A stretch of 33,662 nt of DNA from Myxococcales bacterium (GCA_023248635.1 JAHFED010000064.1:1-33662), one strand, 5' to 3'. Positions 4,836 through 26,443 are shown, numbered from the stretch's first letter. Notes: generated from the letters alone by a model not told the origin. Translations and numbers: made by a program.

Positions 4836-4876
4836 CTTCGAAAAGATCGGGGCCAACCGGCGCTAGCACCACGTCT

Positions 4877-7923: not shown

Positions 7924-7983
7924 CTATCTCTAAAATACATGATGGATTGGTCGAAAAAAATACTGAATTCGGAGGCTGTGAGG

Positions 7984-9848: not shown

Positions 9849-9850
9849 CC

Positions 9851-9904
9851 ATGGCGTCAATTATCGCTGTCGTCGCGGACAAAGGTGGCTCGGGAAAGTC
9901 CACC
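9851..9904 (+). pseudogene. parA-like gene, 5' fragment (Walker A), interrupted
   Basis: ATG 9851 opens MASIIAVVADKGGSGKST, the N-terminal strand and deviant Walker A motif (KGGSGKST) of the ParA/MinD/Soj family of DNA-partitioning ATPases. After the Thr codon at 9902-9904 the frame runs into antisense DUF2252 sequence. The missing continuation (VTTNLGGLLHRKGHR) is found at 26096 on the same strand. Joining 9904 to 26096 restores the family spacing GKST-x3-NL without gain or loss of a base. The insertion therefore inactivates parA. Confidence 0.85.
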
Positions 9905-10299
9905 CATTCCCAAGGAGCCGTGCAGGTCTCGTCGAAGTCGTTGACGTCGAAGACGATGCGGCCGTCGGCCGACGCAAACGCGCCGAGATTCCGGACGTGC
10001 GCGTCGCCGCAGATTTGCACCGTGTGCTGCGTCGACGGCAGCGTCACGAGGTCCATCGCCATGATCGGCCCGCTCCCGCGAAAGAAGGCAAAAGGCGACT
10101 CGGCCATCCGGCCATATTTGATGGGAACGAGATCTTCGATGCGGCCGGTGTTGGTCTTGCGCAGCACGTCGACGATGGCGGGTCGCCCCGCGCCGACGCG
10201 CCAGACGTCTTGGTCGACGCGGCGGACAACGGCGCGCAGCGAGCGGCCGTGGGCGAGTCTCTCTGCAATGGGGGCGAAACGCGACGGCGCTTTGGACAT
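9905..10299 (-). pseudogene. DUF2252 gene, 5' half (N-terminal 131 codons)
   Basis: The minus-strand frame from ATG 10299 (ATG 10332 possible) reads MSKAPSRFAPIAERL and then the DUF2252 signature: LVPIKYGRM, SPFAFFRGSG, the histidine-containing ICGDAHVRNLGAF, and DVNDFDETCTAPWEW. DUF2252 proteins are about 430-460 residues long with a kinase-like (APH-type) fold suspected; their reaction is unknown. Coding stops being DUF2252-like after TGG at 9904-9906, where parA sequence begins. The remaining 315 codons lie at 26095-25150. In the present arrangement the product would be truncated. Confidence 0.85.
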
Positions 10300-10531
10300 A
10301 CGAGGCAAGCGTAGAACCGATCGAGCTGCCATGGGCCCGATGGTCGATCCGCCACGGCCCGTCGACGACGTCGTCGACCGGCAGTGTCCCTCGGGCATCG
10401 TGGGCGTGGGCGCGGGCGGACCGCACAGGAACAAGACCGAGATGGGTCCCCGGCTTGAGCCGCAAACGATCGCCGGCTTGCCGCGCACCGCGGTTTTGGA
10501 GCAAGGATCCGCCTCCTCACCGAGGTGATCG

Positions 10532-11572
10532 ATGTCCGACAAGCGCATGTTCGAGTTCGTCGAAGGCAGCTCCAGCAAGTTCTGGGAGGTCTGGCGCAGC
10601 GGCTCGGAAGTGCGCACGCGCTACGGCAAGATCGGCACCGCGGGTCAGGTCACGGTGAAAGATGAAGGCACGGAAGAAAAGGGCATCAAGCTGTACAACA
10701 AACTGATCGCCGAAAAGACCAAGAAGGGGTATGAAGAAAAGACCGCTGGAGGCGCGCCATCGGCGACAACGACGATGACGATGCCGCCAGCCCAGGCCAA
10801 AGCGACCGCGGCGACTCCGGACTTTTCAGGATTGCTGAAAAAGGTCGAGGAGAAGGCCAAGAAAGCAGGTGTGACCTTGCCGGCGGGCGCCTCGGAAGCG
10901 GCGTTTACCGCCTTGGAGACGACGCTGGGCTTTCCGCTGAGCGCCTCGATGAAGGCCTATTACCGCGCCCACGACGGCGGCCCTGAAGACGCCGACGACT
11001 TCGTTGACGCCGACGACCTGGGCGGCCGCGAGTTGCTGAGCCTCGAACGCATCGCCAGCGAGTGGAAGGTGTGGAAGGGCCTGCTCGACGCCGGCGACTT
11101 CGGCGACAACGACCACAGCGACCCCGAAAAAGGCGTGCAGCAGAGGTGGTGGATCCCGCAGTGGGTCCCCGTCACCTACGACGGCTCCGGCAACCACCAC
11201 GTCGTCGACATGGCCCCGGCCGACTTCGGCGTGGCCGGCCAGGTGCTGTCGTTCTGGCACGACGAAGAGACCCGCACCGTGGTCGGCAAAGGTTTTCTCG
11301 CCTGGCTGGCGTCGCCGGACACCAAGTTCAACGGTGGCGAAGGCGGCGACGAAGACGAAGGCGAAGGCGGTGGTTGGCGCCGCTTCGAGGTCGACGAGAA
11401 GTTCTGGATGATCAAGCTCGACGGCGCGTCGCACACGGTGCGCTACGGCAAGATCGGGACCGACGGCGCCGAGAAGACCAAGGACTTCGACGACGACGAC
11501 GCAGCCCAGAAGGACCACGACAAGCTCGTGAAGGAAAAGACCAAGAAGGGTTACGAAGAAGCCGACGGCTGA
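10532..11572 (+). CDS. WGR - SMI1/KNR4 - WGR protein (346 aa)
   Basis: Two WGR domains flank a SUKH (SMI1/KNR4) domain. The first WGR (about residues 5-68) has FWEVWRSGSEVRTRYGKIGT; the second (about 284-344) has FWMIKLDGASHTVRYGKIGT. Both end in EKTKKGYEE, so they arose by duplication. The middle (about 95-270) has the SMI1/KNR4 pattern of an acidic alpha/beta domain (LGFPLSASMKAYYRAHDGG, then DLGGRELLSLERI, then W.PVTYDGSGNHHVVDM). WGR domains are nucleic-acid-binding modules also found in PARPs; SUKH domains often act as binding or immunity modules. ATG 10532 has GAGGTG upstream. The gene heads the SWIM/MoxR/DUF5682/VWA cluster. E. coli yehI (WGR, DUF4132) similarly lies beside the yehLMPQ genes. 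Confidence 0.85.
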   Translation: MSDKRMFEFVEGSSSKFWEVWRSGSEVRTRYGKIGTAGQVTVKDEGTEEKGIKLYNKLIAEKTKKGYEEKTAGGAPSATTTMTMPPAQAKATAATPDFSGLLKKVEEKAKKAGVTLPAGASEAAFTALETTLGFPLSASMKAYYRAHDGGPEDADDFVDADDLGGRELLSLERIASEWKVWKGLLDAGDFGDNDHSDPEKGVQQRWWIPQWVPVTYDGSGNHHVVDMAPADFGVAGQVLSFWHDEETRTVVGKGFLAWLASPDTKFNGGEGGDEDEGEGGGWRRFEVDEKFWMIKLDGASHTVRYGKIGTDGAEKTKDFDDDDAAQKDHDKLVKEKTKKGYEEADG

Positions 11573-11739
11573 GGTCGAGCCGATCGTGCCCACCAGGCTG
11601 GACCGCTCGCGGCACCGTGCTCGGCCTTCACGGGCACCGCCGCCCTCGCGAAGGGCACCGTGAACGATGTCACGCGGCCAGTGACGCCAGAAGGCTCCGC
11701 GACTTGAGATTCCTCGCGATTTGCGCCGATCGTCCGAGC

Positions 11740-12993
11740 ATGGCGACGAAAAAGAAGGCGACCCCAATCCCTGCACCGACGACGCCCCCGACGCCGGAGG
11801 CAGCGACTGCCGTCGCCGATGCTGCGGCGACGACGGAGTTGAAGACGAACAGGAAGAAGGCGATGCCGAAGGAGGCGAAGCAGAAGAAGCCGTCGAAGAC
11901 GCACTCGGAGCTGACCGACAGGCGCGTCGCCTTCGTCGGCGAATTCTCGATCTGGCCTGGCTACCACCACGCGAACCCCTCGACAGTGGCCAAGAGGCAC
12001 GGCGCGATCCTCACCGAGGCCGTCGACGACACTCTTGACGTCCTGGTCCTCGGCGACAACCGCGGCGAAGGCCGTGCCGAAACGAAGAAGAAAGCCGAGA
12101 AGCTCGTTGCCGGCGGCGCGAAGTTGAAGATCGTCGACGAGGCCACCTACCGCGAGTGGGTGCGCATCGATCTGACCGGCAAGCGCTTCGTCCTCGTCGG
12201 CGGCTTCGACTGCTCCCCCGACGAGGCCACCGATCGGCTGCTGGCGCGCATGGTGGAAAACGTCGGCGGCGTCGTCGTCGACGACTTCCTCGGCGACCAT
12301 CAGAAGGGGGGCGGCGCCGTCGACGTCGACTACGTCGTCCGCGGCCTGCGCAAAGGAGAGAAGAAGATGGCGCGGCTGAACCTCGCCGAGAAGCTGATCA
12401 AGGGGGGCAGCGAGCTGAAGATCCTCGAGGAGGGCCAGTTCCTCGCTCTGGTGCGCAAGGACGCGCCCCTGGGTGCCGCGTCATCGTCGTCGACGGCGGG
12501 CGCTGCTCCCGGCGAGGGCGCCGTCGGCCACGACTTCTCGGCCTTCATGGGTCAGCTCTATGGCGTTGCCGAGCAGGCCAAGATCGGCCGCGCGCTGAAG
12601 ATGTTGAAGGCCGAGAGCTTCAAGCTCTTCAACAAGGTCGACGAAGTGCGGCTCATCGGTGTCGTGAAGAGCCAGACCGGCAGCGGCGAGGTCTACGCGC
12701 CCTGGCTCAACGCGACGGGGCAGTACGGCTGCTGCACCCAGGACCTCGACGAGTGCATGGGTCTGCAGGGGGCCGTGTGCAAACATCTCCTCGTCCTCGT
12801 CGTCGGCCTCACGCGCACCGGCGTGATGCCGGCCGAGCGCGGGCTCGGCTGGCTCAAGCTCGCCCGCAAGAAGGGCCCGAAGTTCGAGCAGGACCTCTGT
12901 GCCGAGACCCTCCTCCAATACAAGGGCGCCGAAGCCGGGACCGTCGACTGGCGCCCCACTGAGACCCTGCCGGAAGACTTCCTCGCCCTCTGA
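11740..12993 (+). CDS. BRCT-BRCT-SWIM zinc-finger protein (417 aa)
   Basis: After a Lys/Ala/Pro-rich N-terminal tail (about 55 residues) there are two BRCT-like domains, at about residues 58-140 (RRVAFVGEFSIWPGYHH, LDVLVLGDN, AKLKIVDEATYREWV) and about 143-240 (GKRFVLVGGFDC, VDVDYVVRGLR, ELKILEEGQFLALV). The C-terminal 150 residues are a SWIM zinc-finger module with GCCTQ, C and CKH ligands (CCTQDLDECMGLQGAVCKHL). BRCT domains bind phosphopeptides or DNA ends, and SWIM fingers bind nucleic acid or protein. The combination suggests a nucleic-acid-associated partner of the downstream MoxR/VWA proteins. The start ATG 11740 is the only sensible one, though its ribosome-binding site is weak. The last 180 residues are duplicated in the next gene. 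Confidence 0.85.
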   Translation: MATKKKATPIPAPTTPPTPEAATAVADAAATTELKTNRKKAMPKEAKQKKPSKTHSELTDRRVAFVGEFSIWPGYHHANPSTVAKRHGAILTEAVDDTLDVLVLGDNRGEGRAETKKKAEKLVAGGAKLKIVDEATYREWVRIDLTGKRFVLVGGFDCSPDEATDRLLARMVENVGGVVVDDFLGDHQKGGGAVDVDYVVRGLRKGEKKMARLNLAEKLIKGGSELKILEEGQFLALVRKDAPLGAASSSSTAGAAPGEGAVGHDFSAFMGQLYGVAEQAKIGRALKMLKAESFKLFNKVDEVRLIGVVKSQTGSGEVYAPWLNATGQYGCCTQDLDECMGLQGAVCKHLLVLVVGLTRTGVMPAERGLGWLKLARKKGPKFEQDLCAETLLQYKGAEAGTVDWRPTETLPEDFLAL

Positions 12994-13143
12994 GCGAGCT
13001 TGATTGGGGGAAATCAGTGTTGACCAGGATCAACAGTTGGGGCGTTGCTGCGGCGGCGGCGAAGTGATCTGACGGCGTCATGGCCCGGGAGCTGATTTCA
13101 TGACCCTCCTCGTCCCCTCTGCTCTTTCGTCCGGGGTCTTGAG

Positions 13144-13695
13144 ATGAGCTCTAGACGCGTCGTCAACGCCAAGGCCGCTGCTGCGCCGCTGCCGCTGGCC
13201 GTGCCCGCGAAGCACACCGCCGGCCTCGTCACCGACGTCGCGCGCTTCGTGCAGGAGCTCGGCAAGAGCGTCGACCTCGGCCGCATCGGCAACGCCACCA
13301 AGATGCTCAAGGCCGAGCGCTTCCAGCTCTTCTCCGACGTGGCCGACGACGATGTCATCGGCGTCATCCAGAGCCAGTCGAGCAGCGGCCGTTTCTACTC
13401 CTGCCGCTTGAGCAAAGACGGCGACTTCTCCTGCTGCACGCAGAACCTCCTGCCCTGCGGTGGCCTGCGCGGCGCCCTGTGCAAGCACATCCTCGTCCTC
13501 GTCATCGGCCTCTGCCAGAGCCGCCGCCTCGACGTTCCGCTCGCCCTCGCTTGGGCCGGCGCATCGAAGGCGAAGAAGCCAGTGCTCGACAAGGATCGGG
13601 CGAGCGCCATCTTCCTCAAGCACAAGGGCGCCGAAGCCGGCACGGTCGACTGGCGGCCGACAGAGACTGTCCCCGAGGATTTCTACGCCCTCTAG
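13144..13695 (+). CDS. Stand-alone SWIM zinc-finger protein (183 aa)
   Basis: This is a paralogue of the C-terminal half of the preceding gene product without BRCT domains. Shared blocks are LGRIGNATKMLKAERFQLF (versus IGRALKMLKAESFKLF), CCTQNLLPCGGLRGALCKHI and the C-terminal HKGAEAGTVDWRPTETVPED. Even the nucleotides of that last block are nearly the same, which indicates a fairly recent tandem duplication. Zinc ligands are the CC pair, the following Cys and CKH. In E. coli the SWIM protein YehQ (about 630 aa) is one polypeptide; here the SWIM part and the 518-aa protein that follows may together be its counterpart. The ATG at 13144 follows a weak GAG-containing site. Confidence 0.85.
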   Translation: MSSRRVVNAKAAAAPLPLAVPAKHTAGLVTDVARFVQELGKSVDLGRIGNATKMLKAERFQLFSDVADDDVIGVIQSQSSSGRFYSCRLSKDGDFSCCTQNLLPCGGLRGALCKHILVLVIGLCQSRRLDVPLALAWAGASKAKKPVLDKDRASAIFLKHKGAEAGTVDWRPTETVPEDFYAL

Positions 13696-13762
13696 AAAGA
13701 GACCCGCGGCGGCCCCGGCCGAGCCCGTTGACGACGAGGTCGACGACGACGTCGACGTCAAC

Positions 13763-15319
13763 GTGCAGGGGGCGCGCGCACGCACCGGCTGGCGTGCCGA
13801 GGTCTGCGCCACTCTGGAGCTCCTCGAGGGCGAGATCGAGGACCTCTTCGTGCGCGGCCTCTCCGCAGCCAACGCCGACGACGTGCGCACCCTCGACCAC
13901 GCCGCTCGGCAGCTCGACGGCGCCGGCGCCTCCTTCGTGGCCGCCCGCATCGACGATGTGATCGTGCTGCAGAAGGCGGGGGCAAAGACGGCGGCGAAGG
14001 CGCTGCTGCAGTTGCAGACGACGTTAAGGGTCTTTGAGCGGGTGCTCACCCTGGAGGCCGTTGAGGCCCTGCTCGGCGTGGCAAACGACGACGACGTCGA
14101 CGCGCACGCGCGCACCGCTGTTGCGCCTGCCACAACCGCCGGCAAGCCCGCCGCGGCGTTGCTGCCGTCCGCCGAGGGCAAGAGGCTGCTGCCAGTGCTC
14201 GAGGACCTCGCCCGCGCTGTCGAAGACCTCGTCGCCACCGGCCTGGTGACGGCGTCGAAGGCGACGAAGGAGAAGCTCGAGGCCTCCTTCAAGGAGGCCT
14301 CGCGCCTGAAGCTCGGCCGCCTGGCCGCCTCGCTGCGCTACGTCATGGAGGAGCTCGGCCGCTACCTCGACGGGGCGCCGACCTTCTCGGCGAAGAGGCT
14401 CGCTCTCTTCCTCGGCCGGTCGTGGATGCTCGGCCGCGGGCTCGCGCTGGCCATCAGCGAGAAGAACGAGGCGGCACAAGCCCGGCTCTTGTGGTCCTTC
14501 CCCGCCGTCGCCGTCGACAGCGTCGTCTTCGTCGCCCTCGGCGTGCGCAAGCGCCTGCCCCAGGGCACCGGCATCGTGGCCTTCGACTTCCACCTGCGCG
14601 TTGTCGACTACATCGCCCTGCCTGGTGGCATCACGCTCGCGCGCGGCGCGCCCCTGGTCTGGTCGCACATCGTGCCCCGCAAGGACGCGAGCATTCCGGC
14701 TGAGGCCCTGCTCCACCTCGAGATCAAGCCCGCTGGCGGAGGCATCGGCTGGAAGCCCGTGAGCCTGACCGACCCGAAGGTCTTCGCCGTCGACGTCGCC
14801 AGCGTCGTCGTCGATGGCCGCGGCGGTGGCCGGCTCCTGATGGGTCCGCAGACCCGCGTGCGGGCCCTCGAGCGCACCGTCGCGCCCGCCGACCTCGCTG
14901 GCCTGGCCGGCTTCGTCCCCGCCGACATCGCCGACCGCGCCGCCGCCTGGCAGACCTCGCCCCTCGACCTCGAGGTGGAGCACGCCGAAGAAGTGCTCGT
15001 CCAGGCCGTCGTCGGCAAAGTGAAGAAGGGCGAAGAGGGCGCCCCCGACGTCGTCGTCGTCAGCGCAGCCGCAGTGGGCGGTGCCACCTTCGCTTTCGAC
15101 GTCAAGCTGCCGCGCACCGAGGAATGGACCGCGCTGGCAACCGCGTTGAGGGCGCTGGCGAAGACAAAGAAGACCGCACCGATCTTTGGCGTGCTGCATT
15201 TCGATCGCTGCCAGCTCTGCTTCGCGCCCCTCTCTGTCGTCGACGACAGCGGCGTCCGCCACCTCATGATTTCCACCGACAAGGTGGACCTGAAGACCCT
15301 CACCCGCTCCCTGTTCTGA
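13763..15319 (+). CDS. Unknown protein of the SWIM/MoxR cluster (518 aa, start uncertain)
   Basis: This open frame starts where the SWIM gene ends. The first half is helical (about residues 8-210: LELLEGEIEDLFVRGLS, LEDLARAVEDLVATGLV), with a repeat-like match between those two blocks. The second half is beta-rich (VDSVVFVALGVRKRLPQG, VKLPRTEEWTALATALRAL). It is not a domain that I can name; it may correspond to the C-terminal part of YehQ-like SWIM proteins. No ATG lies near the expected start: GTG 13763 is the first usable codon after the SWIM stop, and the next in-frame start upstream (ATG 13460) would overlap the SWIM gene by about 235 bp. A frame change that split a longer SWIM protein is possible. 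It ends 16 bp before the MoxR gene. Confidence 0.7.
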   Translation: MQGARARTGWRAEVCATLELLEGEIEDLFVRGLSAANADDVRTLDHAARQLDGAGASFVAARIDDVIVLQKAGAKTAAKALLQLQTTLRVFERVLTLEAVEALLGVANDDDVDAHARTAVAPATTAGKPAAALLPSAEGKRLLPVLEDLARAVEDLVATGLVTASKATKEKLEASFKEASRLKLGRLAASLRYVMEELGRYLDGAPTFSAKRLALFLGRSWMLGRGLALAISEKNEAAQARLLWSFPAVAVDSVVFVALGVRKRLPQGTGIVAFDFHLRVVDYIALPGGITLARGAPLVWSHIVPRKDASIPAEALLHLEIKPAGGGIGWKPVSLTDPKVFAVDVASVVVDGRGGGRLLMGPQTRVRALERTVAPADLAGLAGFVPADIADRAAAWQTSPLDLEVEHAEEVLVQAVVGKVKKGEEGAPDVVVVSAAAVGGATFAFDVKLPRTEEWTALATALRALAKTKKTAPIFGVLHFDRCQLCFAPLSVVDDSGVRHLMISTDKVDLKTLTRSLF

Positions 15320-15335
15320 GCCCCCGGAGAACGCC

Positions 15336-16526
15336 ATGGCCTCGAAAAAGAAGAGTGAATCCGCGGACGAGACGTCGTCGGCCCTGTCGACCGCGCCGGC
15401 GAAGGAACGCGATCGGGTGCGCGAGCCCGCCGAGGTTCGCTACGCCCACGAGCTCGAAGCTCTGCGGCAGAACGATCCGACCCCACCGCCGTCGCCGTGG
15501 AAGCTGTCGCCGCGCTCGGTGCTTGCCTACGTGCTCGGCCAGAAGAAGGTGTTGAAGGCCACCATCGACGGCGCCGTCGTCGACGTGCCCATCACCCGCA
15601 AGTTCTTCGGCGATGACGCCCTCGTTGAGCGGGCCATCGTCACCCTTGCCAGCGAGCGAGCGCTGCTGCTCGTCGGCGAGCCAGGCACCGGCAAGAGCTG
15701 GCTCAGCGAACACCTCGCTGCCGCCATCTCTGGCTGCTCGACCCTCACCATCCAGGGCACCGCCGGTACCACCGAAGAGCACATCAAGTACTCGTGGAAC
15801 GTCGCTCGCGTCATCGCCGAGGGGCCGACGCCGCAGAACCTGATCCCCGCGCCGACGATGATCGCGATGAAGTCGGGGACACTGTTGCGTTTCGAGGAGA
15901 TCACGCGCTGCGTTCCCGACGTGCAGGATGCGCTGGTGTCCATCCTCTCTGACAAGGCGATCGCTGTCCCCGAGCTCCCCGACGCCAACATGATCTGGGC
16001 AAGGCCGGGGTTCAACATCATCGCCACGGCGAACTCTCGCGATCAGGGTGTGAACGAGCTGTCGGCGGCCTTGAAGCGTCGCTTCAACTACATCCACATC
16101 CCGGTGATCGCCGACCAAAAGACCGAGGTCGACGTCGTGCGCGAGCGCAGCAAGGAGCTCCTCGAGCGCTACCAGATCCCTGGCCCCATCGACGAGCCCG
16201 TGCTGCAACTCCTGGCCACCGTCTTTCGCGAGATGCGCACCGGTGCCACCAGCGAGGGCACCTCGATCCAAAAGCCGTCGACGACGGTGTCGACGGCAGA
16301 GGCCATCGGCTGCGCCCTCGACGCCGCACTGTATGCGCGCTTCTTCGGCGGCGGCGTCGTCGGCCCCGCTGACGTCGCCCGCAACCTCGTTGGCTCCATC
16401 GTCAAGGAAGACATGGCCGACGTCGGCGTGCTCAAGGAGTACCTGACCCTCGTCGCCAAGAAGCGCGCGACCACGGACCCGGCCTGGAAGCAGTTCCATG
16501 AAGCCGCGGCCAAGGCGCTGGGCTGA
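15336..16526 (+). CDS. MoxR-type AAA+ ATPase (396 aa)
   Basis: Walker A is at residues 114-121 (GEPGTGKS), Walker B at 183-188 (LLRFEE), sensor 1 at 227-233 (NIIATAN), and the arginine finger is in LKRRF (246-250). The N-terminal 50 residues are a low-complexity charged tail. MoxR ATPases act as chaperone-like motors with VWA-domain partners, often to remodel or load metal or protein complexes. Here the VWA partner is encoded two genes downstream. A GGAG site lies 8 nt before ATG 15336. The stop overlaps the start of the DUF5682 gene by one base (TGATG), so the two are translationally coupled. YehL of E. coli is the likely counterpart. Confidence 0.92.
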   Translation: MASKKKSESADETSSALSTAPAKERDRVREPAEVRYAHELEALRQNDPTPPPSPWKLSPRSVLAYVLGQKKVLKATIDGAVVDVPITRKFFGDDALVERAIVTLASERALLLVGEPGTGKSWLSEHLAAAISGCSTLTIQGTAGTTEEHIKYSWNVARVIAEGPTPQNLIPAPTMIAMKSGTLLRFEEITRCVPDVQDALVSILSDKAIAVPELPDANMIWARPGFNIIATANSRDQGVNELSAALKRRFNYIHIPVIADQKTEVDVVRERSKELLERYQIPGPIDEPVLQLLATVFREMRTGATSEGTSIQKPSTTVSTAEAIGCALDAALYARFFGGGVVGPADVARNLVGSIVKEDMADVGVLKEYLTLVAKKRATTDPAWKQFHEAAAKALG

Positions 16527-19042
16527 TGAACGAGCGCGCGCCCCACCCCGTCGTCGACGACGTTCTCACGGTCCCTCTGTTGGGAGCGGGTCTCGACATC
16601 GACGCCGTGCGCGCGGCGACGGCGAAGGTGCTCGCCGACGACGTCTGTTGGTTTCCCGTGCGCCACCACTCGCCGACCGCCGCGTTGCACCTGCGCAAAG
16701 CGATGCTCGAGAAGAGGCCGAAGGTCTTGTTCCTCGAGGCCCCCGCCGACGCCAACGAGCTGGTGAAGCACATCGTCGATCCAAAGACGAAGCCGCCGGT
16801 GGCGCTGTACGTGAGCTACCGCGACGACGACAACGTCACTGGCCTCGCCGGCATCGCCAGCCCTTCGCCCGACGTGCCGCCGCGTTTCTCGGCGTGGTTT
16901 CCGCTCATGGCCTACTCACCGGAGTACGTGGCCATGAAGACGGCGGCGGAGATCGGCTGCGACGTCGTCTTCTTCGACCTGCCCCGCTCCGCGTTGATCA
17001 AGGAGCACGAGACCGCTGGCGCGGACGGCGACGACCACAATGACGTCGAGGACGCCGGCGTCGACGGCGATGACCAGAGCGAAAAGCGCGGCGAGAGCTG
17101 GGAGGCCCTCGCGGTGCGCAGCACCTTCTACGCGGCGCTCGCCAAGAGCGCGGGCTTCCGGACCTGGGACGAGTGCTGGGACGCCCTCTTTGAGGACCCG
17201 GGCCGGCACCAGACGTGGCGGGCCTACCGCGAGGACCTCGCCGCCTTCTGCGCCGCCGTGCGCGCGACCACACCGCGGTCGCGCGTCGAGCAGGACGGCA
17301 CCCTCGCCCGCGAGCGCTTCATGCAGAAGACGTTGACGACGACGCTGCAGGAGCGCGGCGTCGACGGCAAAGACGCCTTCGTCGTCTGCGGCGGCTTCCA
17401 CCTCTTCCTCGACCGCGACGATGTCGTGGAGCCACCAGCGCGGCGACCGGGCACGCACTACGCAACGGTGGCGCCCTACTCCTCCTTCCGCGTCAGCGAG
17501 GCGAGCGGCTACGGCGCCGCCAACCGTGCGCCCCAATGGTACGGGCTCCTGCACGACGCCTGCGACGACTCCCGCGGCGGCGACGCCGACGACGGCGCTG
17601 TCGACGCCATGCTCAAGCACATCGTCGCCGTGTTGCGACAGGGCCGCAAAGAGGGCGACGGCCTCTCCTCCGCCGATGCCATCGCCGCGGCGCAGCACGC
17701 GCACCTGCTCGCGCGCTTGCGGGGCCGGCGACACCCCGTCCTCGACGACATTAGAGACGCTTTGATCTCCTGCTGCTGCAAGGGGCGTCCAGCAGAGGAA
17801 GGCGCGCACCTCGTGCAGGCGATGGTGCACGCCGAGATCGGCAACGCCGTCGGCCGCGTGACACCCGAGCTCGGGCAGCTCCCCCTCGTCCACGACTTCT
17901 ACGCCGCCGTCGACAGCCTCGATCTCGGCGAGGTCATGGGCCGCGAGAAGCGCCTCACGCTGCAGCTCGACCTGCGCAAGGAAGAAGACCGTCGGCGCTC
18001 CGTGTTCCTGCACCGGCTCGTACACCTCGAGGTGCCGCTGGGAAAGATGCTCGACGAGCGGGCGCTGGCTGGCACCTTGTTCAGCGAGCGTTGGTCCCTG
18101 GCCTGGTCGCCGAAGGTTGAGGAGGCTCTGATCGAGAAGAACCTCTACGGCGACGCCGTTGAGACTGCCGCCGCCGCCGTTCTCGAGGAGCAGCTCGCCA
18201 AGGATGAGGTCCACGCTGGCCGGGCCTGCCAGCGGCTGGTGCGCTCGCTCAACATGGACCTGCCGGGGATGATGCTCCGGCTCGAGAGTGCCTGCGGCAA
18301 GGCCATCGACGAGGACCAGCGCTTCGTCTCCCTCGCCGACGCCGTCGTCGCTCTCTTGTTGCTCGATCGCCACGCAGCCCGCGGTGCCCTCGCGCGCGAA
18401 GCGCTGCAGACCTTGATCGAGAGGGCCTTCGGTCGCGCCTGCTTCTTGATTCCCGACGTCTCCTCCGTCGCCGAGGAAGATCAGTCCGCCGTCGTCGCCG
18501 GCCTGCAGTCCCTCGCCGAGGTCTTGCTCGGCACCAGCACGGAGGGCCTCGACAAAGACGCCTTCGTCGAAAACGTCAGCAACGCCGCCACGATCTCCAC
18601 GGTGCCCTTCCTGCAGGGCGCGCTGCGCGGGCTCCTCTGTGAGATCCGCGCCGTCGACGCCACTGACCTCGCCGACCGCGTCGCTGCCTACGCTCGCGCC
18701 CGCCCCGATGTGCTCGTGCAGGCGGGCCCTTTCCTCGACGGTGTGATGGCGGTGTCGAAGACCTCGCTGCTGCTGGGCGCCGACGCCCTCGTCGCTGCCG
18801 TCGACGAATTGCTGCGCGCTGCCGACGACGACGCCTTCAAGACCATGTTGCCGCTTGTGCGCCACGCCTTCGAGCGCCTGCACGAGCGTCAGCGCGATGC
18901 CCTCGCCGGCCACGTCGCTGAGCGCTACGGCCTACGGGAGGCGGCGTCGATCACGAAGCTCGAGACCAGCACCGATGCCCTCGCCGAGATGGCCCGCATC
19001 GACAAACGCGTGGCCACGATCATGAAGGAGTGGGCCTTATGA
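16526..19042 (+). CDS. DUF5682 family protein (838 aa)
   Basis: The N-terminal domain has the family signature CWFPVRHHSPTAALHL (about residues 41-56), LFLEAPADANELV, PPVALYVSY, WFPLMAYSPEYVAMK and VVFFDLPRSAL, followed by VVCGGFHLFL near residue 290. The remainder is largely helical. The EAP/EGP and H..SP pattern recalls TraB/ChaN-like folds, but no activity has been shown for this family to my knowledge. It is typically encoded beside a MoxR ATPase and a VWA protein, as here, and E. coli YehM appears to belong to the same arrangement. It begins in the MoxR stop codon and ends 31 bp before the VWA gene. No signal peptide is seen; it is probably cytosolic. Confidence 0.88.
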   Translation: MNERAPHPVVDDVLTVPLLGAGLDIDAVRAATAKVLADDVCWFPVRHHSPTAALHLRKAMLEKRPKVLFLEAPADANELVKHIVDPKTKPPVALYVSYRDDDNVTGLAGIASPSPDVPPRFSAWFPLMAYSPEYVAMKTAAEIGCDVVFFDLPRSALIKEHETAGADGDDHNDVEDAGVDGDDQSEKRGESWEALAVRSTFYAALAKSAGFRTWDECWDALFEDPGRHQTWRAYREDLAAFCAAVRATTPRSRVEQDGTLARERFMQKTLTTTLQERGVDGKDAFVVCGGFHLFLDRDDVVEPPARRPGTHYATVAPYSSFRVSEASGYGAANRAPQWYGLLHDACDDSRGGDADDGAVDAMLKHIVAVLRQGRKEGDGLSSADAIAAAQHAHLLARLRGRRHPVLDDIRDALISCCCKGRPAEEGAHLVQAMVHAEIGNAVGRVTPELGQLPLVHDFYAAVDSLDLGEVMGREKRLTLQLDLRKEEDRRRSVFLHRLVHLEVPLGKMLDERALAGTLFSERWSLAWSPKVEEALIEKNLYGDAVETAAAAVLEEQLAKDEVHAGRACQRLVRSLNMDLPGMMLRLESACGKAIDEDQRFVSLADAVVALLLLDRHAARGALAREALQTLIERAFGRACFLIPDVSSVAEEDQSAVVAGLQSLAEVLLGTSTEGLDKDAFVENVSNAATISTVPFLQGALRGLLCEIRAVDATDLADRVAAYARARPDVLVQAGPFLDGVMAVSKTSLLLGADALVAAVDELLRAADDDAFKTMLPLVRHAFERLHERQRDALAGHVAERYGLREAASITKLETSTDALAEMARIDKRVATIMKEWAL

Positions 19043-19073
19043 GCCAGCTCCCGTCTGCTCGCCGAGGTCTCAG

Positions 19074-20201
19074 ATGACTGCGCCGAAGCCGAAGCCACAG
19101 CTCGACGACGACGACCGCGCCGCGCTCACGCGGTGGCGGCTGGTGCTCGGCCAGAGCGCGCAGCAGGCCGGGCTGGAGCTCGTCGGCGACGAGGCCGCCG
19201 GGCTCGAGAGCACCCTGGACTTCCTCTTTGACCGCGGTGGCGGCAAGGCAACGTCGACGTTGACGGTGCCGCGCTGGATCGACGCCGTGAACGAGCTCTT
19301 CCCGCGGGCGGCGAAGGAGGTGCTGGAGCGCGAGCTCATCAAGAGGAAGGGCATTACCGAGCTCCTCGACAAGCCGGAGATCCTCGAGAAGATCGAGCCC
19401 AGCGTCGAGATGGTGAAGACGCTGCTCACGCACAAGGACCTGCTGAACCCCAAGGCCCGCGTGCTGGCGCGCAAGATCATCGACCAGGTGGTGCAGCAGC
19501 TGAAGAAGAAGCTCGAGGTGCAGATCGAGCAGGCCATCGTCGGCGCCGTGCGCAAGGACCGACACGCGCCACGCCGGGTGTTCAAGAACCTCGACATCAA
19601 GACGACGCTGCGCCGCAACCTGAAGAACTGGGACGAGGGTAGGCAGCTGCTCCTCGTCGACCGCGTCTTCTACTACGCCGCCGAGCGGAACCGCCGGCCC
19701 TGGCACATCATCTGTTGCGTCGATCAGTCGGGCTCGATGCTCGAGAGCGCGATCTTTTCGGCGGTGATGGCCTCCATCTTCAGCGAGCTCCCTGGGGTGA
19801 AGACCTCGCTGGTGCTCTTCGACACGCAGGTCGTCGACTTGAGCGATCAGCTCGGCTCTCCCGTCGATGTGCTTCTCAAGGTCCAGCTCGGCGGCGGCAC
19901 CGACATCACCAAGGCCCTGCAGTATTGCGGCGAGCTTCTGCGCGAGCCGCCGCGCACCATCTTGGTGTTGATCACCGACTTCTACGAGGGCCGCGACGAG
20001 CGCGACATGATCGCCGAGGTCGCGAAGCTCGCCGACGCCGGCGTGCGCATGGTGGGCCTCGGCGCCCTCGGCTACGACGCGCGGCCTCAATACAACAAGC
20101 CCACGGCCAACAAGTGCCGCAAGGTCGGCATGGACGTCCTCGTTTGCACGCCGGAGAAGTTGGCCGAGTGCATGGGGGAGATCATCGCGGGGCGGCGGTG
20201 A
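19074..20201 (+). CDS. VWA domain protein, MoxR partner (375 aa)
   Basis: The C-terminal von Willebrand A domain (about residues 210-375) has a complete MIDAS: DQSGS at 217-221, Thr/Asp in GGGTDI (276-277) and the Asp of ITDFYEG (302). The N-terminal 200 residues are helical and charged (TRWRLVLGQSAQQAG, KIIDQVVQQLKKKLE), as in YehP-type proteins. It probably binds a metal ion and a client or the MoxR ATPase. ATG 19074 follows a GAGG site. It is the last gene of the tightly packed cluster; the next gene begins 76 bp later and looks unrelated. Confidence 0.9.
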   Translation: MTAPKPKPQLDDDDRAALTRWRLVLGQSAQQAGLELVGDEAAGLESTLDFLFDRGGGKATSTLTVPRWIDAVNELFPRAAKEVLERELIKRKGITELLDKPEILEKIEPSVEMVKTLLTHKDLLNPKARVLARKIIDQVVQQLKKKLEVQIEQAIVGAVRKDRHAPRRVFKNLDIKTTLRRNLKNWDEGRQLLLVDRVFYYAAERNRRPWHIICCVDQSGSMLESAIFSAVMASIFSELPGVKTSLVLFDTQVVDLSDQLGSPVDVLLKVQLGGGTDITKALQYCGELLREPPRTILVLITDFYEGRDERDMIAEVAKLADAGVRMVGLGALGYDARPQYNKPTANKCRKVGMDVLVCTPEKLAECMGEIIAGRR

Positions 20202-20277
20202 CGACGACGACTCCTTCGACTTCGCCCCCCCGGGACAGCAACTTGTCAGGCGCAGCGCTTTGTCGTCTGTTCGGGAC

Positions 20278-20796
20278 ATGCGGCCGTTCCTGACCTTCAT
20301 GAGTGTGGCGTTCTTTCTCGGTTGCGAGCCCGAGCCGGTGGTGGAGACACCGCTGCCCGTGCCCGCCGCCGTCCTCCCAGCGCCTGTCCCCGTCGTCATT
20401 GCGGCACCGGCGCCGGACCCGCTCGCAACGGCCTTGGCGACTGCCGGGATCCCTGTTGGCCAGGGACCTCAACTCGAAGGCGGCGTTGGGCCTGGTGTCG
20501 ATGGCCGGATGCGCGTGCAAAGGCCCGCGACCATGGGCGGTCTCCAAAACGATGAGGTCTACGCCGTGATGCGCGCCCATGTGCGGAGTCTTGAGCGCTG
20601 CGCGGGGGAGGCGACAGGTGAGCTCGGCGTGTCGATCGACGTCGACGCTGCGGGCCGCGTGACCGAGGCGGAGGTCACGCAAGGCGATCCGGTGGTGGCG
20701 ACATGTATCGCGCGCCAGGTGAAGAGCTGGCGCTTTCGGCCGGTCAAGGGCGGGACGGCGTCTGCCATCCTCCCGTTCACCTTGCTGCCCCACTGA
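20278..20796 (+). CDS. Lipoprotein with AgmX/PglI-type C-terminal domain (172 aa)
   Basis: MRPFLTFMSVAFFLGC is a lipoprotein signal with Cys at residue 16, followed by a Pro/Val/Ala-rich linker. The C-terminal 85 residues match the TonB-like AgmX/PglI domain found in many myxobacterial proteins: VRSLERCAGEATGELGVSID, then AGRVTEAEV, then CIARQVKSWRFRPVKGG. The two Cys (ERC and TCI) are the usual conserved pair. AgmX was defined in Myxococcus gliding; here the role is unknown. ATG 20278 is preferred over a GTG/ATG cluster at 20260, because it gives the better signal peptide. Confidence 0.8.
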   Translation: MRPFLTFMSVAFFLGCEPEPVVETPLPVPAAVLPAPVPVVIAAPAPDPLATALATAGIPVGQGPQLEGGVGPGVDGRMRVQRPATMGGLQNDEVYAVMRAHVRSLERCAGEATGELGVSIDVDAAGRVTEAEVTQGDPVVATCIARQVKSWRFRPVKGGTASAILPFTLLPH

Positions 20797-20850
20797 CGCA
20801 GGCCGAGGAGCACCGGACCGCGGCAGCGACGATGTTGGATCGACCGACCC

Positions 20851-21711
20851 TCACACCGCGGGGAGCCGCGCCTGGAAAACCCCCTCTTCGCTCACGACGA
20901 GGCAGAGCCCGGCTGGGTTGGCGACGAGGCGATGCACGCGAGCGGGGCCAGTGCCTGACGCCGCCTCAGTGACCCAGCTTGCCCCCAAGTCCTTGGACAG
21001 GAGCACGCCGCCGTCGGTCGTCCCCACGACGAGAGTCGAGCCCATCAAGGTCCCACCCGTGAGGCTCTTTGACGTCGATGGCTCAGGCGTCGTCCAAGTT
21101 GCCCCGGCGTCGCGACTGTGCGCTGTGAAACCCGCAGCGCCGGCGACGACGATGGTATCGCCATCGAACATCGGCGCGTGCAGCGCCTGAACCCTCCACG
21201 AGGCAATCAGGTCCAGGTGCGCCGCACCGGCGTCGAGGCGAAACAGCCTCCCATTTGAGGACGTCACGAAGCCGTCGCCCTTGGCGTCGATGCACACCCC
21301 ACGCGTCCAGACGCCGCGCGGCAATGACGATTCCTGCCAGTCGTCGGAGCCCGTGGTGCGCCAGGCAACCCGATTACAACCGCACACGATAACGAGCGAC
21401 GATGTCGCCGATATTTGATGCATTGGATCTTTGTGTCGTAGCTGCTTAACAACCCAATTTGTCCCGTCGTCCTCCGAGGTGGCGATCCTACCGCCGCCAC
21501 AGGCGACGAGGAGCTCGCCAGACGGCAGTCGCGCGACGCCGCCAAGACTCCACCGTTTTCGATCCAGGGAAATCTGCGCCCACGACGTGCCGTCGTCGAT
21601 CGAACGGATCAACAGTCCGTTGGTGCCGGATGCGAGGGCCTCTCCAGCCGCACCGAGCCAGAGGCCGTAGAACCCCGCCATTCCGCTCGTCGTGCACTGA
21701 AGGGTGATCAT
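20851..21711 (-). CDS. BNR/Asp-box beta-propeller protein (286 aa)
   Basis: At least four Asp-box motifs are visible: IDDGTSWAQ, EDDGTNWVV, RDAGATWTT and KDLGASWVT, spaced at about 45-75 residues. This is the pattern of a BNR or Ycf48-like beta-propeller. No signal peptide is seen from ATG 21711, which has AGGAAG upstream; a TTG at 21735 is an alternative start. It converges with the AgmX-type lipoprotein gene (54 bp apart) and lies about 130 bp downstream of the methyltransferase gene on the same strand. The binding partner is unknown; propellers are frequent neighbours of MoxR-VWA modules, but this one is on the opposite strand. Confidence 0.75.
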   Translation of the reverse strand: MITLQCTTSGMAGFYGLWLGAAGEALASGTNGLLIRSIDDGTSWAQISLDRKRWSLGGVARLPSGELLVACGGGRIATSEDDGTNWVVKQLRHKDPMHQISATSSLVIVCGCNRVAWRTTGSDDWQESSLPRGVWTRGVCIDAKGDGFVTSSNGRLFRLDAGAAHLDLIASWRVQALHAPMFDGDTIVVAGAAGFTAHSRDAGATWTTPEPSTSKSLTGGTLMGSTLVVGTTDGGVLLSKDLGASWVTEAASGTGPARVHRLVANPAGLCLVVSEEGVFQARLPAV

Positions 21712-21843
21712 CTCGCTTCCTCGGCATCGCACCAAGAGCCATGCCTTTTTCTTCTCTTCAACCAGGCAACGTTAGCCGGCTTGGAGGCGCCGCTCGAGAC
21801 CTGACCCGGGGTGCTGCGTCGCCGGAGTTGCTTCTCTCATCGA

Positions 21844-22572
21844 TCAGGTGCCGGCGGGCTTGGTCGCCGTGATTCGCCAGGTCGGGATGAAGAACGCCAC
21901 ATTGTCGATCCCCACGGCGACGTCGACGAGGCCAGCTGCGCGCAGCACCTTCGCGTAGGCACGCCCCGGCGAAATGTCGAGGATGAGCACGCGCCCACCG
22001 GGCTTCAGCACGCGCGTGATCTCGCGCAGCGCCTGCGAGCGACCCCCAGCACTCGGCACGTTGTGGATGGCCCAAGAGGACACAACGACGTCGAACGACG
22101 TGTCGGGCAGCTCCATCTTCGTCATATCGCCGGTCAGGATCTCGATCCGCTCACTGGTGCCCTCGGCGAGCGCGTTCTGCTTGGTGACCGCAGGGTCGTT
22201 GCCCGATTGATCGACGCTGCGCCACAGGTCGAGCCCGACGGCGCGGCCGGTGGTGAGCGCCTTCGCCACGCCGTGCAGCAGCAGTCCGCGACCGCAGCCG
22301 ACGTCAAGCACGCGCTCGTCGCCTTTGAGCCCGAGGTCGCGCACCAAGCGATCGCGCGCGCGCAGCTTCACCACACGGCTGCCGATGATCATCCACACTG
22401 CCGTCGCGAGCCAGGCGACGCCCGGCCAAAGCAGGAAGGCGAGCCTGCTGAGCGGCGGCCCTGCGTCGAGCAAGCGCACGACGACGGCGATAGACACCGA
22501 GAGAGCGCCGGCAGCGGCGAGGTTGCGCACGACAGTGGGCGCGTCTTGTCCGTAGTTCGCGGCGTTGCTCAT
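21844..22572 (-). CDS. Membrane-anchored class I SAM-dependent methyltransferase (242 aa)
   Basis: Two hydrophobic helices come first (about residues 17-36 and 43-64). The methyltransferase domain follows, with motif I ERVLDVGCGRGLLLHGVA (about 86-104), an acidic residue after the second strand (AVGLDLW), and post-motifs ILTGDMTKMELPDTSFDVVV and LREITRVLKPGGRVLILD. The latter two blocks are typical of Methyltransf_11/UbiE-like enzymes. The substrate cannot be told; the membrane anchor suggests a lipid or quinone. ATG 22572 was chosen (22584 possible). It diverges from the lipoprotein gene at 22857, leaving a 284-bp region that must hold both promoters. Confidence 0.85.
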   Translation of the reverse strand: MSNAANYGQDAPTVVRNLAAAGALSVSIAVVVRLLDAGPPLSRLAFLLWPGVAWLATAVWMIIGSRVVKLRARDRLVRDLGLKGDERVLDVGCGRGLLLHGVAKALTTGRAVGLDLWRSVDQSGNDPAVTKQNALAEGTSERIEILTGDMTKMELPDTSFDVVVSSWAIHNVPSAGGRSQALREITRVLKPGGRVLILDISPGRAYAKVLRAAGLVDVAVGIDNVAFFIPTWRITATKPAGT

Positions 22573-22856
22573 GGGCTCGCGCATAGAGCGTCGGGTCGAG
22601 AGCGTCGACGGGCACCGACAACGTCGATGCTGGCAGGTGTCGCGCCCGTCGGTTGGCGCCCATGCGCCGGACGCTGCCCGCAAGAGCGACTTCGCTTTCT
22701 TCGAGGAGGTCCGCGTCGTCGCCAGCGCCGAGCTTGCCCGCTTGGTTGGCGCGCTGCGGCAGTCGACGCTGCGGCCGACCTCGCGTTTCGGCTCGGCCCG
22801 CAAGAGTTGCCGGGGCTGACAGATGCCGGCGCTGCGGACTCGGGGTAGGCTCGGGC

Positions 22857-24239
22857 ATGCGCTTCGCCTTCGTTCTTGTCGTCGTCGTCTCGGTGCTGGG
22901 CGCCTGCAAACCAGTGGAGCCGGCGAAGGACCGCACCGCGCCCCGCGTCGTCGCCGTCGACCCCAGCGATCCCGTGGTGCCCGTCGACGTCGCCTTCGTC
23001 ATCACCGTGAGCGAGGATCTGCTGGCCACCACGGTCGAAGCCGATCCCACCTCGGAGACGGTCACTGTCGTGCTCGTGCCGCGCGCGGCCACGCTGGATG
23101 CGCTGATCACCGACTTCAACAACCCGCCTCTGGCCGACAGCCGTCAAGACGAACCCGTACAGGTGAACGTCGACGTCGACGGCCCCGCCTTGGCCATCAC
23201 GCCTCTTGAGCCTTTGGAGCCGCGCACTGCTTATGTGCTGCTCCTGGGGAGCGACATCACCGACGGCGCCAGCAATCCCCTCGTCGACGGCAGCGGGCTC
23301 AAGGCTGTGTTTCGCTACGACTTCGAGACCGATGGCGGGCAGCCGACGGTCAACGACGTCGACGTCGATGGCCCTGGTTTGGTGGCTCCCAACCGCCGGC
23401 GCCTGGTCGTGACCTTCAACCAGCCTGTGCAAAACGTCGGCAACGACACGCTCACGCTCTCGCCCACAGCACCCATCGACGCCATCCTCGCCAACGAAGC
23501 GCGCACCGAGGTCACCGTGCTCATCGGGGCCGGTGAAGGCTGCAACCGTCTGGCACCGTCGACGACGTACACGCTGGCTGTGAGTGCGGCAGTGGTCGGC
23601 GACACCGGGCAGGCGCTGGCTCCCTTCAGCGCTGACTTCACCACGGGTGCTGCTTGTGACAGCGCGCCGAACCTGATCGTCGACGGGCCCGATGCTATTG
23701 CTGGCGAAGTGGCGGCCTCGGTGCGCTTCGAAACGACCAAGGCGTCGACGACGGAGGTGCGTTTTGGTTTGAGCGGTGGGCCCCTGGATTGTCTGGGTGC
23801 TGCTTGTCCCGTGTTGGGGACCCCAGCCCGCACAGCCATCGCGGGCTCGAGCCCGCCGCGTTTTTTGCACAGTGTCGAGCTGGCCGGCCTCGCGCTGGAT
23901 TCCTCCTACGACGTCGTCGTCAGCGCCGAAGACGACGTCGGCAACACCAGCACCGCGCAGGTCGCGTTCATCACGGCTCCGCTGCCGAAGGTGGCGATCA
24001 ATGAGGTGATGGCCAATCCGTCGACGTCGTCGGAGGCCACAGGCGAATACGTCGAGCTGGTGAACTTCGGCGGCGTCGACGTCAACACCGCCCTGACCTT
24101 CGGCTTCGATCCGGTCACCGGCATCGCAGCGCCGGGGAGCTTGATGCGCGAAGGCGACGTCTACTCCGCCGTGGCCCATGCCCTCGGCATCGACTTCGAC
24201 GGCCGTGTCGATATGCCTTGTATGGTCAAGAACGCGTGA
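22857..24239 (+). CDS. Big_5/lamin-tail lipoprotein, C-terminus probably chimeric (460 aa)
   Basis: MRFAFVLVVVVSVLGAC is a lipoprotein signal with Cys at residue 17. Two Ig-like (Big_5/SbsA-type) units follow: DRTAPRVVAVDPSDPVVPVD with LEPRTAYVLLLGSDI, and PNRRRLVVTFNQPV with LAPSTTYTLAV. An Fn3-like piece follows (SSYDVVVSAEDDVGNTS). A lamin-tail domain begins at about residue 380 (VAINEVMANPSTS, GEYVELVNFGGVDV) but does not complete. After about base 24095 the sequence changes to FGFDPVTGIAAPGSLM and VYSAVAHALGIDFDGRVDMP, which resembles the C-terminus of DUF1501-type proteins. The gene therefore seems to be a 5' fragment joined to a foreign 3' end. Cell-surface or secreted. Confidence 0.7.
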   Translation: MRFAFVLVVVVSVLGACKPVEPAKDRTAPRVVAVDPSDPVVPVDVAFVITVSEDLLATTVEADPTSETVTVVLVPRAATLDALITDFNNPPLADSRQDEPVQVNVDVDGPALAITPLEPLEPRTAYVLLLGSDITDGASNPLVDGSGLKAVFRYDFETDGGQPTVNDVDVDGPGLVAPNRRRLVVTFNQPVQNVGNDTLTLSPTAPIDAILANEARTEVTVLIGAGEGCNRLAPSTTYTLAVSAAVVGDTGQALAPFSADFTTGAACDSAPNLIVDGPDAIAGEVAASVRFETTKASTTEVRFGLSGGPLDCLGAACPVLGTPARTAIAGSSPPRFLHSVELAGLALDSSYDVVVSAEDDVGNTSTAQVAFITAPLPKVAINEVMANPSTSSEATGEYVELVNFGGVDVNTALTFGFDPVTGIAAPGSLMREGDVYSAVAHALGIDFDGRVDMPCMVKNA

Positions 24240-24308
24240 TTTTGCTCCGTTAGAGTGATGCTATTGCGGTGCTCGATTCCGCGCACGTGCTTGCCGCCGC
24301 CGGAGAAG

Positions 24309-24521
24309 TCAGCTCTGTAAGCGCACACGACGTGCATCTCGCCAGGCAACCCGAACGCTGTTGAGCCCGAGCAGATGGTGGGCGGCGGCCCAGATGAAGG
24401 GGACGAGACCGCGCGCATCGTTCGGGTCGTACGGCGGGATCGTCGTAGACGAGCTTCTCGATGGACACCGCTCTGCGCCAGGCGACGAAGCCGCGTGCTC
24501 AACCTCGGTCCACGTCGGCAT
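24309..24521 (-). pseudogene. Unrecognised ORF fragment in a junction region (70 codons)
   Basis: A minus-strand frame with mostly G/C third codon positions reads through YDPNDARGLVPFIWAAAHHL and LGLNSVRVAWRDARR to a stop at 24309. I do not recognise it. It lies between two apparently truncated plus-strand genes, so it may be the 3' end of a gene brought in as filler. Surrounding 24240-24527 holds nothing else I can support. Confidence 0.25.
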
Positions 24522-24527
24522 GGAAAG

Positions 24528-25109
24528 ATGCTCGCCGACGCCGAGGCCGATGATCCACTCCGCAACATCACCAACATTGCGCCGGGCGTGGGCGTCGGAT
24601 CACCCGCCATCGGTGCGGCCGGCGACGGCGGCGTCATCGCTGGTTTGCTGCCCAGCGCGCCCGCCACGCCCGGCTTCGAAGGCCCTGGCGGTACGCCGGC
24701 GTGGAGCGTGAACATTGGTTTGCGCGTGCCCCTCGAAAGTCCGCGCGATGCCACGCTCAGCGTCAGCGCCGCCGTCGGCGGCCCCCAGCTCGGGGCAAGC
24801 GCCGAAGCCACCGTGCGGCTTCGCGACGGGCAAACGACGGGCAACGCCGAGCTCCACGCGACCCAGGGACCGGTCACCGCCAAGGCGCAGGTCGGCTACG
24901 GCAGCGACGGCCACATCGATGCCAAGGTCGCTGTCGACGTCGGCGTCGGCACCGTTGCTGGTCGCGAGGTCCGCGTGGGTAACCAGCTCACGGTGAACCG
25001 CGCTGCCGATGGCACGGTCACTGGCGGCGGGCAGCCCATCGTCAACGGCCACGGCGTCGTCGATGCGGTTCACACCGTGCGCACGGGCCTGCGCAAGCTC
25101 ACCGACTGA
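24528..25109 (+). CDS. Hypothetical protein, probably a 5'-truncated gene (193 aa)
   Basis: The frame has the codon bias of the region and encodes a Gly/Ala/Val-rich protein with alternating short beta-strands (SVNIGLRVPLESPRDATLSV, then QLGASAEATVRLRDG, then AQVGYGSDGHIDAKVAVD). This resembles an outer-surface beta-repeat or autotransporter-like segment. No signal peptide is present and the ATG at 24528 has a poor ribosome-binding site, so the genuine 5' end is probably missing and the gene is likely a fragment of something larger. Upstream sequence is unrelated. It converges with the DUF2252 half at 25150. Function unknown. Confidence 0.5.
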   Translation: MLADAEADDPLRNITNIAPGVGVGSPAIGAAGDGGVIAGLLPSAPATPGFEGPGGTPAWSVNIGLRVPLESPRDATLSVSAAVGGPQLGASAEATVRLRDGQTTGNAELHATQGPVTAKAQVGYGSDGHIDAKVAVDVGVGTVAGREVRVGNQLTVNRAADGTVTGGGQPIVNGHGVVDAVHTVRTGLRKLTD

Positions 25110-25149
25110 GCGACGATCTGTCGTCGACGACCTTGAATGATCGAAGGAC

Positions 25150-26095
25150 TCACGCCGCGACTGTTTGCGCTGGCAATGCGCCCGCCTTGATCGCCTTCCT
25201 GAATTGGTCGTAGTCCGCTGCGACTTGATTGGAGTAGGCGACGGCGAAATCAGCGATGGCGCGATCGAGCTTTGCGGCCTCGCCGCAGTAACCCGAGAGG
25301 ACGGCGGCGTCGCTGGTGCGCGCGTGGCCCCGCGCGAAAATCTCGCCGGCCACGAGCGCGTATTCGACGAGCGCGGCGCCTTCGAGATCGCGGGACTCAA
25401 TCGACGCCTTGTGATCCGAGAGTTGGCGCACGACGAAGTGCTGCTCGTCGATCGTGGTCCAACCCAGCAAAGGATCGGTGGTGGTTTGCATGCGGTGTTG
25501 TCCCTCGGCCACCCGCCTCCCCTCGTGCATGGGGAGGTTCGCTTCGGGCCGATACGGCGCGTAGCAAGACGGCAGAGCTTCTTTGACCTGAAGCATCATT
25601 GGGTCCTGTGGCCCATTGCCGAAGCAGAGGACGACGTAGTTTCGTCGTCCGACGCTCCCGGTGCCAACGACTTTGAAGGCGACGTCGACGGGCTGATAGG
25701 CGTCGAGCACGATTCGACGATTGGGCCCCAGCGTCGACCGGTACTCCGAGAGGGACGCCAGTACACGCCGCGACACACCGGATCCTACCCGTTGCAAAAC
25801 CGGTGGCCGATTCACGAAGCGGTAGTCACCGGCCGGCGTCTTCGCCGTCAGCTTCTTGAGGGACCCCAGTGGGCTGGAGCGCTCGGCCTTCAAGAGCACG
25901 CGACGAACCGGCCCGTCGGCGAGGTGGCGGTTCACTTGATAGTGGGCGAGTTCGACGGCTGGCATCGTTCCGAACCGGTGCAGCGACTCGCGATACGAGC
26001 GCACGAGCGCCTCGACCGCGTCACGGCAGAGGCGATCCGAGTTGTTCGCTTCGCGCCCCGCCAGGACGAAGCTCACCGCCAGCCGCTTGATGCCC
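25150..26095 (-). pseudogene. DUF2252 gene, 3' half (C-terminal 315 codons)
   Basis: Read from 26095 downwards, this gives IKRLAVSFVLAGREANNSD, RFVNRPPVL, DVAFKVVGTGSVGRRNYVVL, QVKEALPS, HEGRRVAEGQ, LGWTTIDEQHFVVRQLSDHK and YCGEAAKLDRAIADFAVAYS. These are the conserved C-terminal blocks of DUF2252 in the right order. It completes the N-terminal half at 10299-9905, which ends in PWEW; the family reads PWEWD.KRLA.S across this point. In the present arrangement it has no start of its own other than sequence derived from antisense parA. Confidence 0.88.
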
Positions 26096-26443
26096 GTGAC
26101 CACCAACCTCGGCGGGCTCCTCCATCGCAAGGGCCACCGCGTTCTTGTCGTTGACGCAGACCCACTTCGTACATCCAGCACTTGGGCGTCGGTGGCTTCT
26201 GAGCGGGACGAGGATGCCCCTACCGCCGTGGCCATCACGGGCAAACGGCTGTTCAAGGACGTCCAGCGGCTGGCCGAGAACTACGACTTCGTCGTCATCG
26301 ATACGGGCAAGGACTCCAAGCCCGAGCAGCGGGCCGCACTGATGCTCGCGCATTTGGCCCTGTTTCCGGTGGCGCACAAGCATGAACAAGGCGTACAAGA
26401 TGCTGGCGCTCCGCGCGCTCATCGATGGGAATGCCCTCTTTGA
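26096..26443 (+). pseudogene. parA-like gene, continuation after the insertion, truncated
   Basis: From GTG at 26096 the frame continues ParA: VTTNLGGLLHRKGHRVLVVD with the switch aspartate in DADP, STWASVAS, then FVVIDTGKDSKPEQRAALML (the second conserved Asp strand) and LALFPV. Resemblance to ParA ends at about 26371. The last 23 codons are out-of-frame sequence of the next gene, so only about 110 of the usual 200 or more residues exist even after rejoining to 9851-9904. The parA gene was therefore also cut at its 3' side by a second event that joined it to the DUF3427-type gene. Confidence 0.8.

Follow-up and report, generated by a model that had tools for sequence, protein, structure and literature searches.

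How did a segment whose two ends are the halves of a single DUF2252 gene come to lie inside a parA gene, with no base gained or lost in the exchange? The window analysed here (33,662 nt) is the whole of contig C117 in a Myxococcales draft genome of 6.53 Mb and 135 contigs, and its features are collected in Table 1.

Reciprocal exchange between parA and DUF2252

As the first-pass annotation had claimed, parA is broken at 9904 and resumes in frame at 26096, with 16,191 bp in between. Joining these two positions gives a single frame, MASIIAVVADKGGSGKST/VTTNLGGLLHRKGHRVLVVDADP..., and removal of the segment restores the target parA frame exactly, with no base missing. Likewise, joining 26095 to 9905 on the minus strand gives a single frame, ...NDFDETCTAPWEW/GIKRLAVSFVLAGRE..., which confirms that the segment is a circular permutation whose ends rejoin as a continuous DUF2252 gene. 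The joined DUF2252 protein spans columns 1-392 of the 392 in PF10009 (406 bits, Pfam) and aligns gap-free across the junction with seven relatives, the top identity being 54% (L060). The joined ParA aligns across its junction with the ParA proteins of plasmids pMF1 (44%, residues 2-116) and pSa001. The description of the exchange as one without gain or loss of bases at a very short match is correct: the only bases common to both sites are CC. Of random point pairs, 18% share at least two bases, and the CC match is explicable by chance.

The further statement that both genes are whole except for the exchange holds for DUF2252, which is complete, but not for parA. The restored parA frame has 133 codons and is a remnant that lacked its 3' half before the exchange, because ParA similarity extends only to about residue 111-116 out of about 220, and the frame continues into the DUF3427 gene. 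Aligning the joined genes with their families, which the annotation had proposed as a check, gave a full-length match for DUF2252 and a match through the junction for ParA, the latter only up to this limit. At 26370-26443 the parA remnant runs over the beginning of the DUF3427/S24 gene and the two are in effect fused, a mosaic junction predating the insertion. DUF2252 beside the WGR gene or the operon, the synteny across the circle joint, was seen in none of 80 DUF2252 loci or the loci of relatives, and the exact junction patterns had no match in IMG/VR.

Table 1 Features of the window (positions counted from its first nucleotide)
Feature	Position	Strand	Remark
Contig-end repeat, 120 nt	1-120		Perfect inverted copy at 33543-33662
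Left arm of parA-bearing DNA	1-9904		GC 0.627, atypical; HTH gene and uncharacterised genes
HTH gene, left arm	4536-4856	-	
parA 5' part	9851-9904	+	Codons 1-18, to the Walker A threonine; MASIIAVVADKGGSGKST
Inserted segment, 16,191 bp	9905-26095		Host-like; both ends formerly adjacent
DUF2252 5' part	9905-10332	-	Residues 1-143 of joined 457
WGR-SUKH-WGR protein	10532-11572	+	PF05406, PF09346
Intact operon	13144-20201	+	Colinear with three other genomes of the phylum
Operon member	13144-13695	+	SWIM-like
Operon member	13460-15319	+	
Operon member, AAA_5	15336-16526	+	MoxR-type AAA
Operon member, DUF5682	16526-19042	+	
Operon member, VWA_CoxE	19074-20201	+	
BNR/YCF48-like repeat protein	20851-21735	-	
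SAM-dependent methyltransferase	21844-22803	-	
B', 5' part of Big_5/LTD-domain gene	22818-24070	+	Start codon 22857, cut by fusion; 88% to C57 (L167 6508-7760)
A', 3' end of DUF1501-type gene	24068-24247	+	Stop 24237-24239; 92% to C57 (L167 6231-6410)
DUF2252 3' part	25150-26095	-	Residues 144-457 and stop
Right arm of parA-bearing DNA	26096-33662		GC 0.617
parA 3' part	26096-26443	+	Codons 19-133 and stop; remnant; ParA similarity to about 26390, then overlaps DUF3427 gene
DUF3427/S24 protein, right arm	26382-27983		
Right-arm gene	28222-29142		
DUF559-helicase, right arm	29139-31199		
Right-arm gene	31126-33342		

A host-like segment in atypical DNA

The two partners of the exchange differ in composition, and here the picture given by the first-pass annotation was incomplete, since the contrast in GC and tetranucleotides went unseen there. 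The segment (GC 0.673, tetranucleotide r = 0.984) falls inside the range of other host contigs, whereas the parA-bearing flanks (GC 0.623, r = 0.945) fall outside it, and composition shifts at the junctions between them. The receiving parA-bearing DNA is the atypical partner, and the segment is host-like DNA. Its operon, comprising a SWIM-like gene, the 13460-15319 gene and genes for a MoxR-type AAA protein, DUF5682 and VWA_CoxE, is kept in distant phylum members, to which DUF5682 shows 52-56% identity; DUF5682 is missing from the three same-family genomes examined. Since three other genomes of the phylum have the operon in colinear form, no breakpoint or circle closure lies inside 13144-20201.

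In the flanks, the DUF3427/S24 protein has a full-length relative of 59% identity in a same-genus genome, and a relative in G001 (C702) shares a frame of 1411 residues with a helicase. The DUF559-helicase (54% identity) and its neighbour at 31126-33342 (33-36%) share synteny with a cluster carried by Streptomyces plasmids (NZ_CP108260). This pair and generic ParA were the only plasmid relatives found, and the flank proteins had no relatives in IMG/VR. The region 28138-33342 shows weak restriction-enzyme matches (PADLOC) and is possibly a defence system. No replication gene was recognised in the parA-bearing DNA, which carries a parA remnant, is of atypical composition and ends in a repeat at the contig borders. 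A left-arm cysteine-rich protein was also compared with one beside a DUF1501-type gene (gene A, below) in G001 (27-31%), and was set aside as a member of a common cysteine-rich family without a link.

The contig-end repeat itself was overlooked in the earlier account. This 120-nt repeat, with the edge TGTAGTTGCCCCC, stands at both ends of C117, at the start of C40 (L023) and at the end of C49 (L166/L058), always facing outward; the repeat's body is missing from the bin, and no target-site duplication is evident. It resembles a mobile element that has long inverted ends. We also considered a linear-plasmid terminal repeat, and prefer a dispersed repeat at an assembly break, given the copies on C40 and C49. 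Other repeats were noted elsewhere in the bin. A block 88% identical between C10 (L019, 2555-3249) and C57 (L194, 216-910) lies near integrase-like frames in each case and is another mobile element, while a 543-bp tandem unit on C32 (L230, 13.0-17.9 kb) and two repeat copies about 6.4 kb apart on C72 (L264, 1.1-10.9 kb) probably belong to large repetitive genes.

A candidate closure point inside the segment

A circle of chromosomal DNA must carry, besides the point at which it was opened, a second unnatural junction at its closure. The segment bears one candidate. The beginning of a Big_5/LTD gene (B') and the final 50-odd codons of a gene of DUF1501 type (A') are fused in frame over three shared bases, CGG (24068-24070), forming one ORF at 22653-24239; gene A was named from the sequence of its copy on C57, not from a Pfam search. 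On C57 the whole of A is followed by the whole of B, 145 bp apart on one strand. The order is thus A-B on C57 and B-A in the window, where both genes are cut internally. Similarity of A' to C57 ends 8 bp past its stop codon, and that of B' begins 39 bp ahead of its start codon. Because these limits sit just outside the genes, unrolling the circle would place the remaining 14.7 kb precisely in the intergenic space of A and B; the C57 copy is without these 14.7 kb between A and B.

Substitutions against the C57 copy fall mostly at third codon positions (B' 21/23/108; A' 0/0/12 for the first, second and third positions), so selection acted on A' and B' until not long before the event. The donor copy presumably came from a close relative or was an old duplicate, and was not taken directly from this chromosome. 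The B and A cut sites resemble each other somewhat more than random pairs do (19/40, P = 0.012), and a homology-assisted join at this cut is possible.

By parsimony we infer that this same circle was closed at the B'-A' fusion, because one circle then explains all, while the alternative needs two. The circular (or exactly unit-length tandem) source suggested in the first-pass annotation is in this way supported more strongly than its author could argue, since the segment bears a closure-like fusion besides the rejoining DUF2252 ends. Searches of other genomes found neither the unrolled locus A'-DUF2252-...-B' nor the scar expected at the donor (A 5' part joined to B 3' part), and the scar is also absent from the host's own genome. 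In three same-family genomes A and B were not observed as neighbours, and in the same genus they lie on different contigs; C57 is the sole witness for the A/B neighbourhood.

Proposed history of the segment

Taken together, the best overall explanation, which we hold to be probable though well short of certain, is a circle derived from a relative's chromosome and two illegitimate exchanges, likely by a Ku/LigD route. The source would be a chromosome piece from a close relative of the host, with the order A', 14.7 kb (DUF2252, the WGR gene, the AAA/DUF5682/VWA operon and the methyltransferase), B'. An illegitimate join from inside B' to inside A' (CGG, 3 bases) would close the 16,191-bp circle, and a second illegitimate exchange between DUF2252 and parA (CC, 2 bases) would link it base for base to the parA-bearing DNA.

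These two exchanges may have happened in either order. The circle may have formed first and then been inserted; or a parA-bearing element may have entered DUF2252 and left with flanking chromosome, excised between A' and B', as a prime plasmid. Either order yields identical products. Of the earlier reading that a circle integrated into parA, the circle is supported, and the integration becomes one of two possible orders of the same two exchanges.

The likely enzyme route would be end joining by Ku/LigD. NHEJ-type junctions have 0-4 shared bases and no flanking homology; the two exchanges here share only 2 and 3 bp, with the weak extra similarity at the B/A cut described above (P = 0.012). Ku and LigD (PE and polymerase domains) are adjacent on C121, and the contig ends there, so that the ligase domain is not seen; the pair lies at 28266-31155 (G000, L205). 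Ku was not found in the three nearest genomes. The presence of the two proteins does not show their action, and that Ku/LigD acted in these exchanges is our inference.

Alternative explanations

An assembly or binning fault, in which the assembler joined a parA-bearing contig with a separate circular or chromosomal contig, is unlikely, though it is invited by a draft genome of 135 contigs, by contig ends that lie in a repeat common to two other contigs, and by the composition switch at the junctions. The matches of 2 and 3 bases are far too short for a join based on overlaps or k-mers, and a fault would need two chimeric joins reciprocal to the base plus a coincidental, closure-like third fusion. 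Additionally, the 1.7 Mb of the bin that were sampled show no second strain, at about 90% identity, from which a chimera might be built; a two-strain mixture as the origin of the 88-92% copies was likewise unsupported there, the search for other duplicated blocks having covered only about 1.7 Mb.

The 16.2-kb molecule may instead have been a small natural plasmid, with the B'-A' fusion left by an earlier local rearrangement (for example, insertion of a 1.5-kb A-B circle or tandem copy). The self-closure of the segment would fit, as would the failure to find the unrolled locus in any genome. The segment, however, has the composition of the host chromosome and contains no detected replication or mobilisation gene, and this account asks for a second circle or tandem event on top of the first, opened exactly in the A-B intergenic space. 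We regard it as improbable.

Serine integrases carry out a base-conservative exchange at an identical core of 2 bp. The exchange seen here, conservative to the base at a 2-bp identical core, would suit site-specific integration of a circular element by such a recombinase. The earlier observation that no recombinase is visible is borne out, none being present among the annotated proteins scanned in either partner (Pfam for both, PHROGs for the flanks). The parA and DUF2252 sites themselves show no palindromy (6/20 and 5/20; random mean 5.4) and no mutual similarity (8/40 against a mean of 10.9), and both lie within conserved motifs of ordinary genes. A serine recombinase would also leave the B'-A' fusion in need of a second explanation, and we consider this origin decidedly improbable.

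Least credible, and very improbable indeed, is a chromosomal tandem duplication from which a fragment of exactly one unit length was broken out and joined into parA: it would yield the same B'-A' junction and permuted unit, but the linear fragment would have had to be cut at an identical base in each of two successive copies, which is improbable, and the bin holds no further copy of the segment except the diverged pieces on C57 and C96.

Discussion

F-prime and R-prime (type II prime) plasmids arise when a replicon integrates and exits with chromosome from both sides, giving a permuted segment and a new chromosomal junction; classical prime plasmids integrate by IS or homology. The segment is like them in that it extends from DUF2252 in both directions, to A' and to B', if the fusion is the closure point. 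It is unlike them in that the parA-bearing DNA is at most a putative replicon, and transfer genes were not found. For pMF1 of Myxococcus fulvus (EU137666), an origin by circularisation of a chromosomal fragment has been proposed (PMC11705834); its ParA is 44% identical to the interrupted parA, and no other pMF1 gene matches the window.

Closer parallels come from eukaryotes. In wine yeasts, 'region B' from Zygosaccharomyces bailii comprises about 17 kb of foreign chromosomal DNA in circularly permuted insertions with split genes; its breakpoints have little or no similarity, with 2-3 shared nucleotides at four junctions, and a circle with NHEJ was proposed (PMC3053389). Circular permutation, split genes and 2-3 shared nucleotides are common to both cases, whereas region B belongs to a eukaryote and has several permuted copies and a working ARS (PMC3053389). 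Our case is a single copy in a single draft genome and shows the presumed closure junction as well. For human segmental duplications via circular DNA, a change of order from A-B/C-D to B-A/D-C served as criterion, together with microhomology at breakpoints (PMC7450558). The window shows the same reversal, A-B on C57 against B-A here, and microhomology. The human duplications lie within one eukaryotic genome with both ends matched to the donor (PMC7450558), while the donor in our case is represented only by an 88-92% copy without the 14.7 kb. A literature search for bacterial cases of this mechanism returned nothing useful. It is unusual for a single bacterial contig to show both the point of opening and the apparent point of closure, and by analogy the locus is apparently a rare bacterial counterpart of the DNA-circle insertions of yeast and mammals.

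Gene blocks that move without integrase, transposase or homology are usually ascribed to unspecified illegitimate recombination. When the opening and apparent closure points can be read to the base, the intermediate becomes nameable, as a circle or a prime plasmid, and testable. More broadly, and quite tentatively, chromosomal circles that do not replicate, closed and re-inserted by end joining, might move kb-sized gene blocks between related bacteria without mobile element, repeat or recombinase, as a counterpart of eccDNA. The locus also supplies a search rule, a change of order from A-B to B-A together with a reciprocal gene split, which is usable on complete genomes for the frequency of such events and their association with Ku/LigD.
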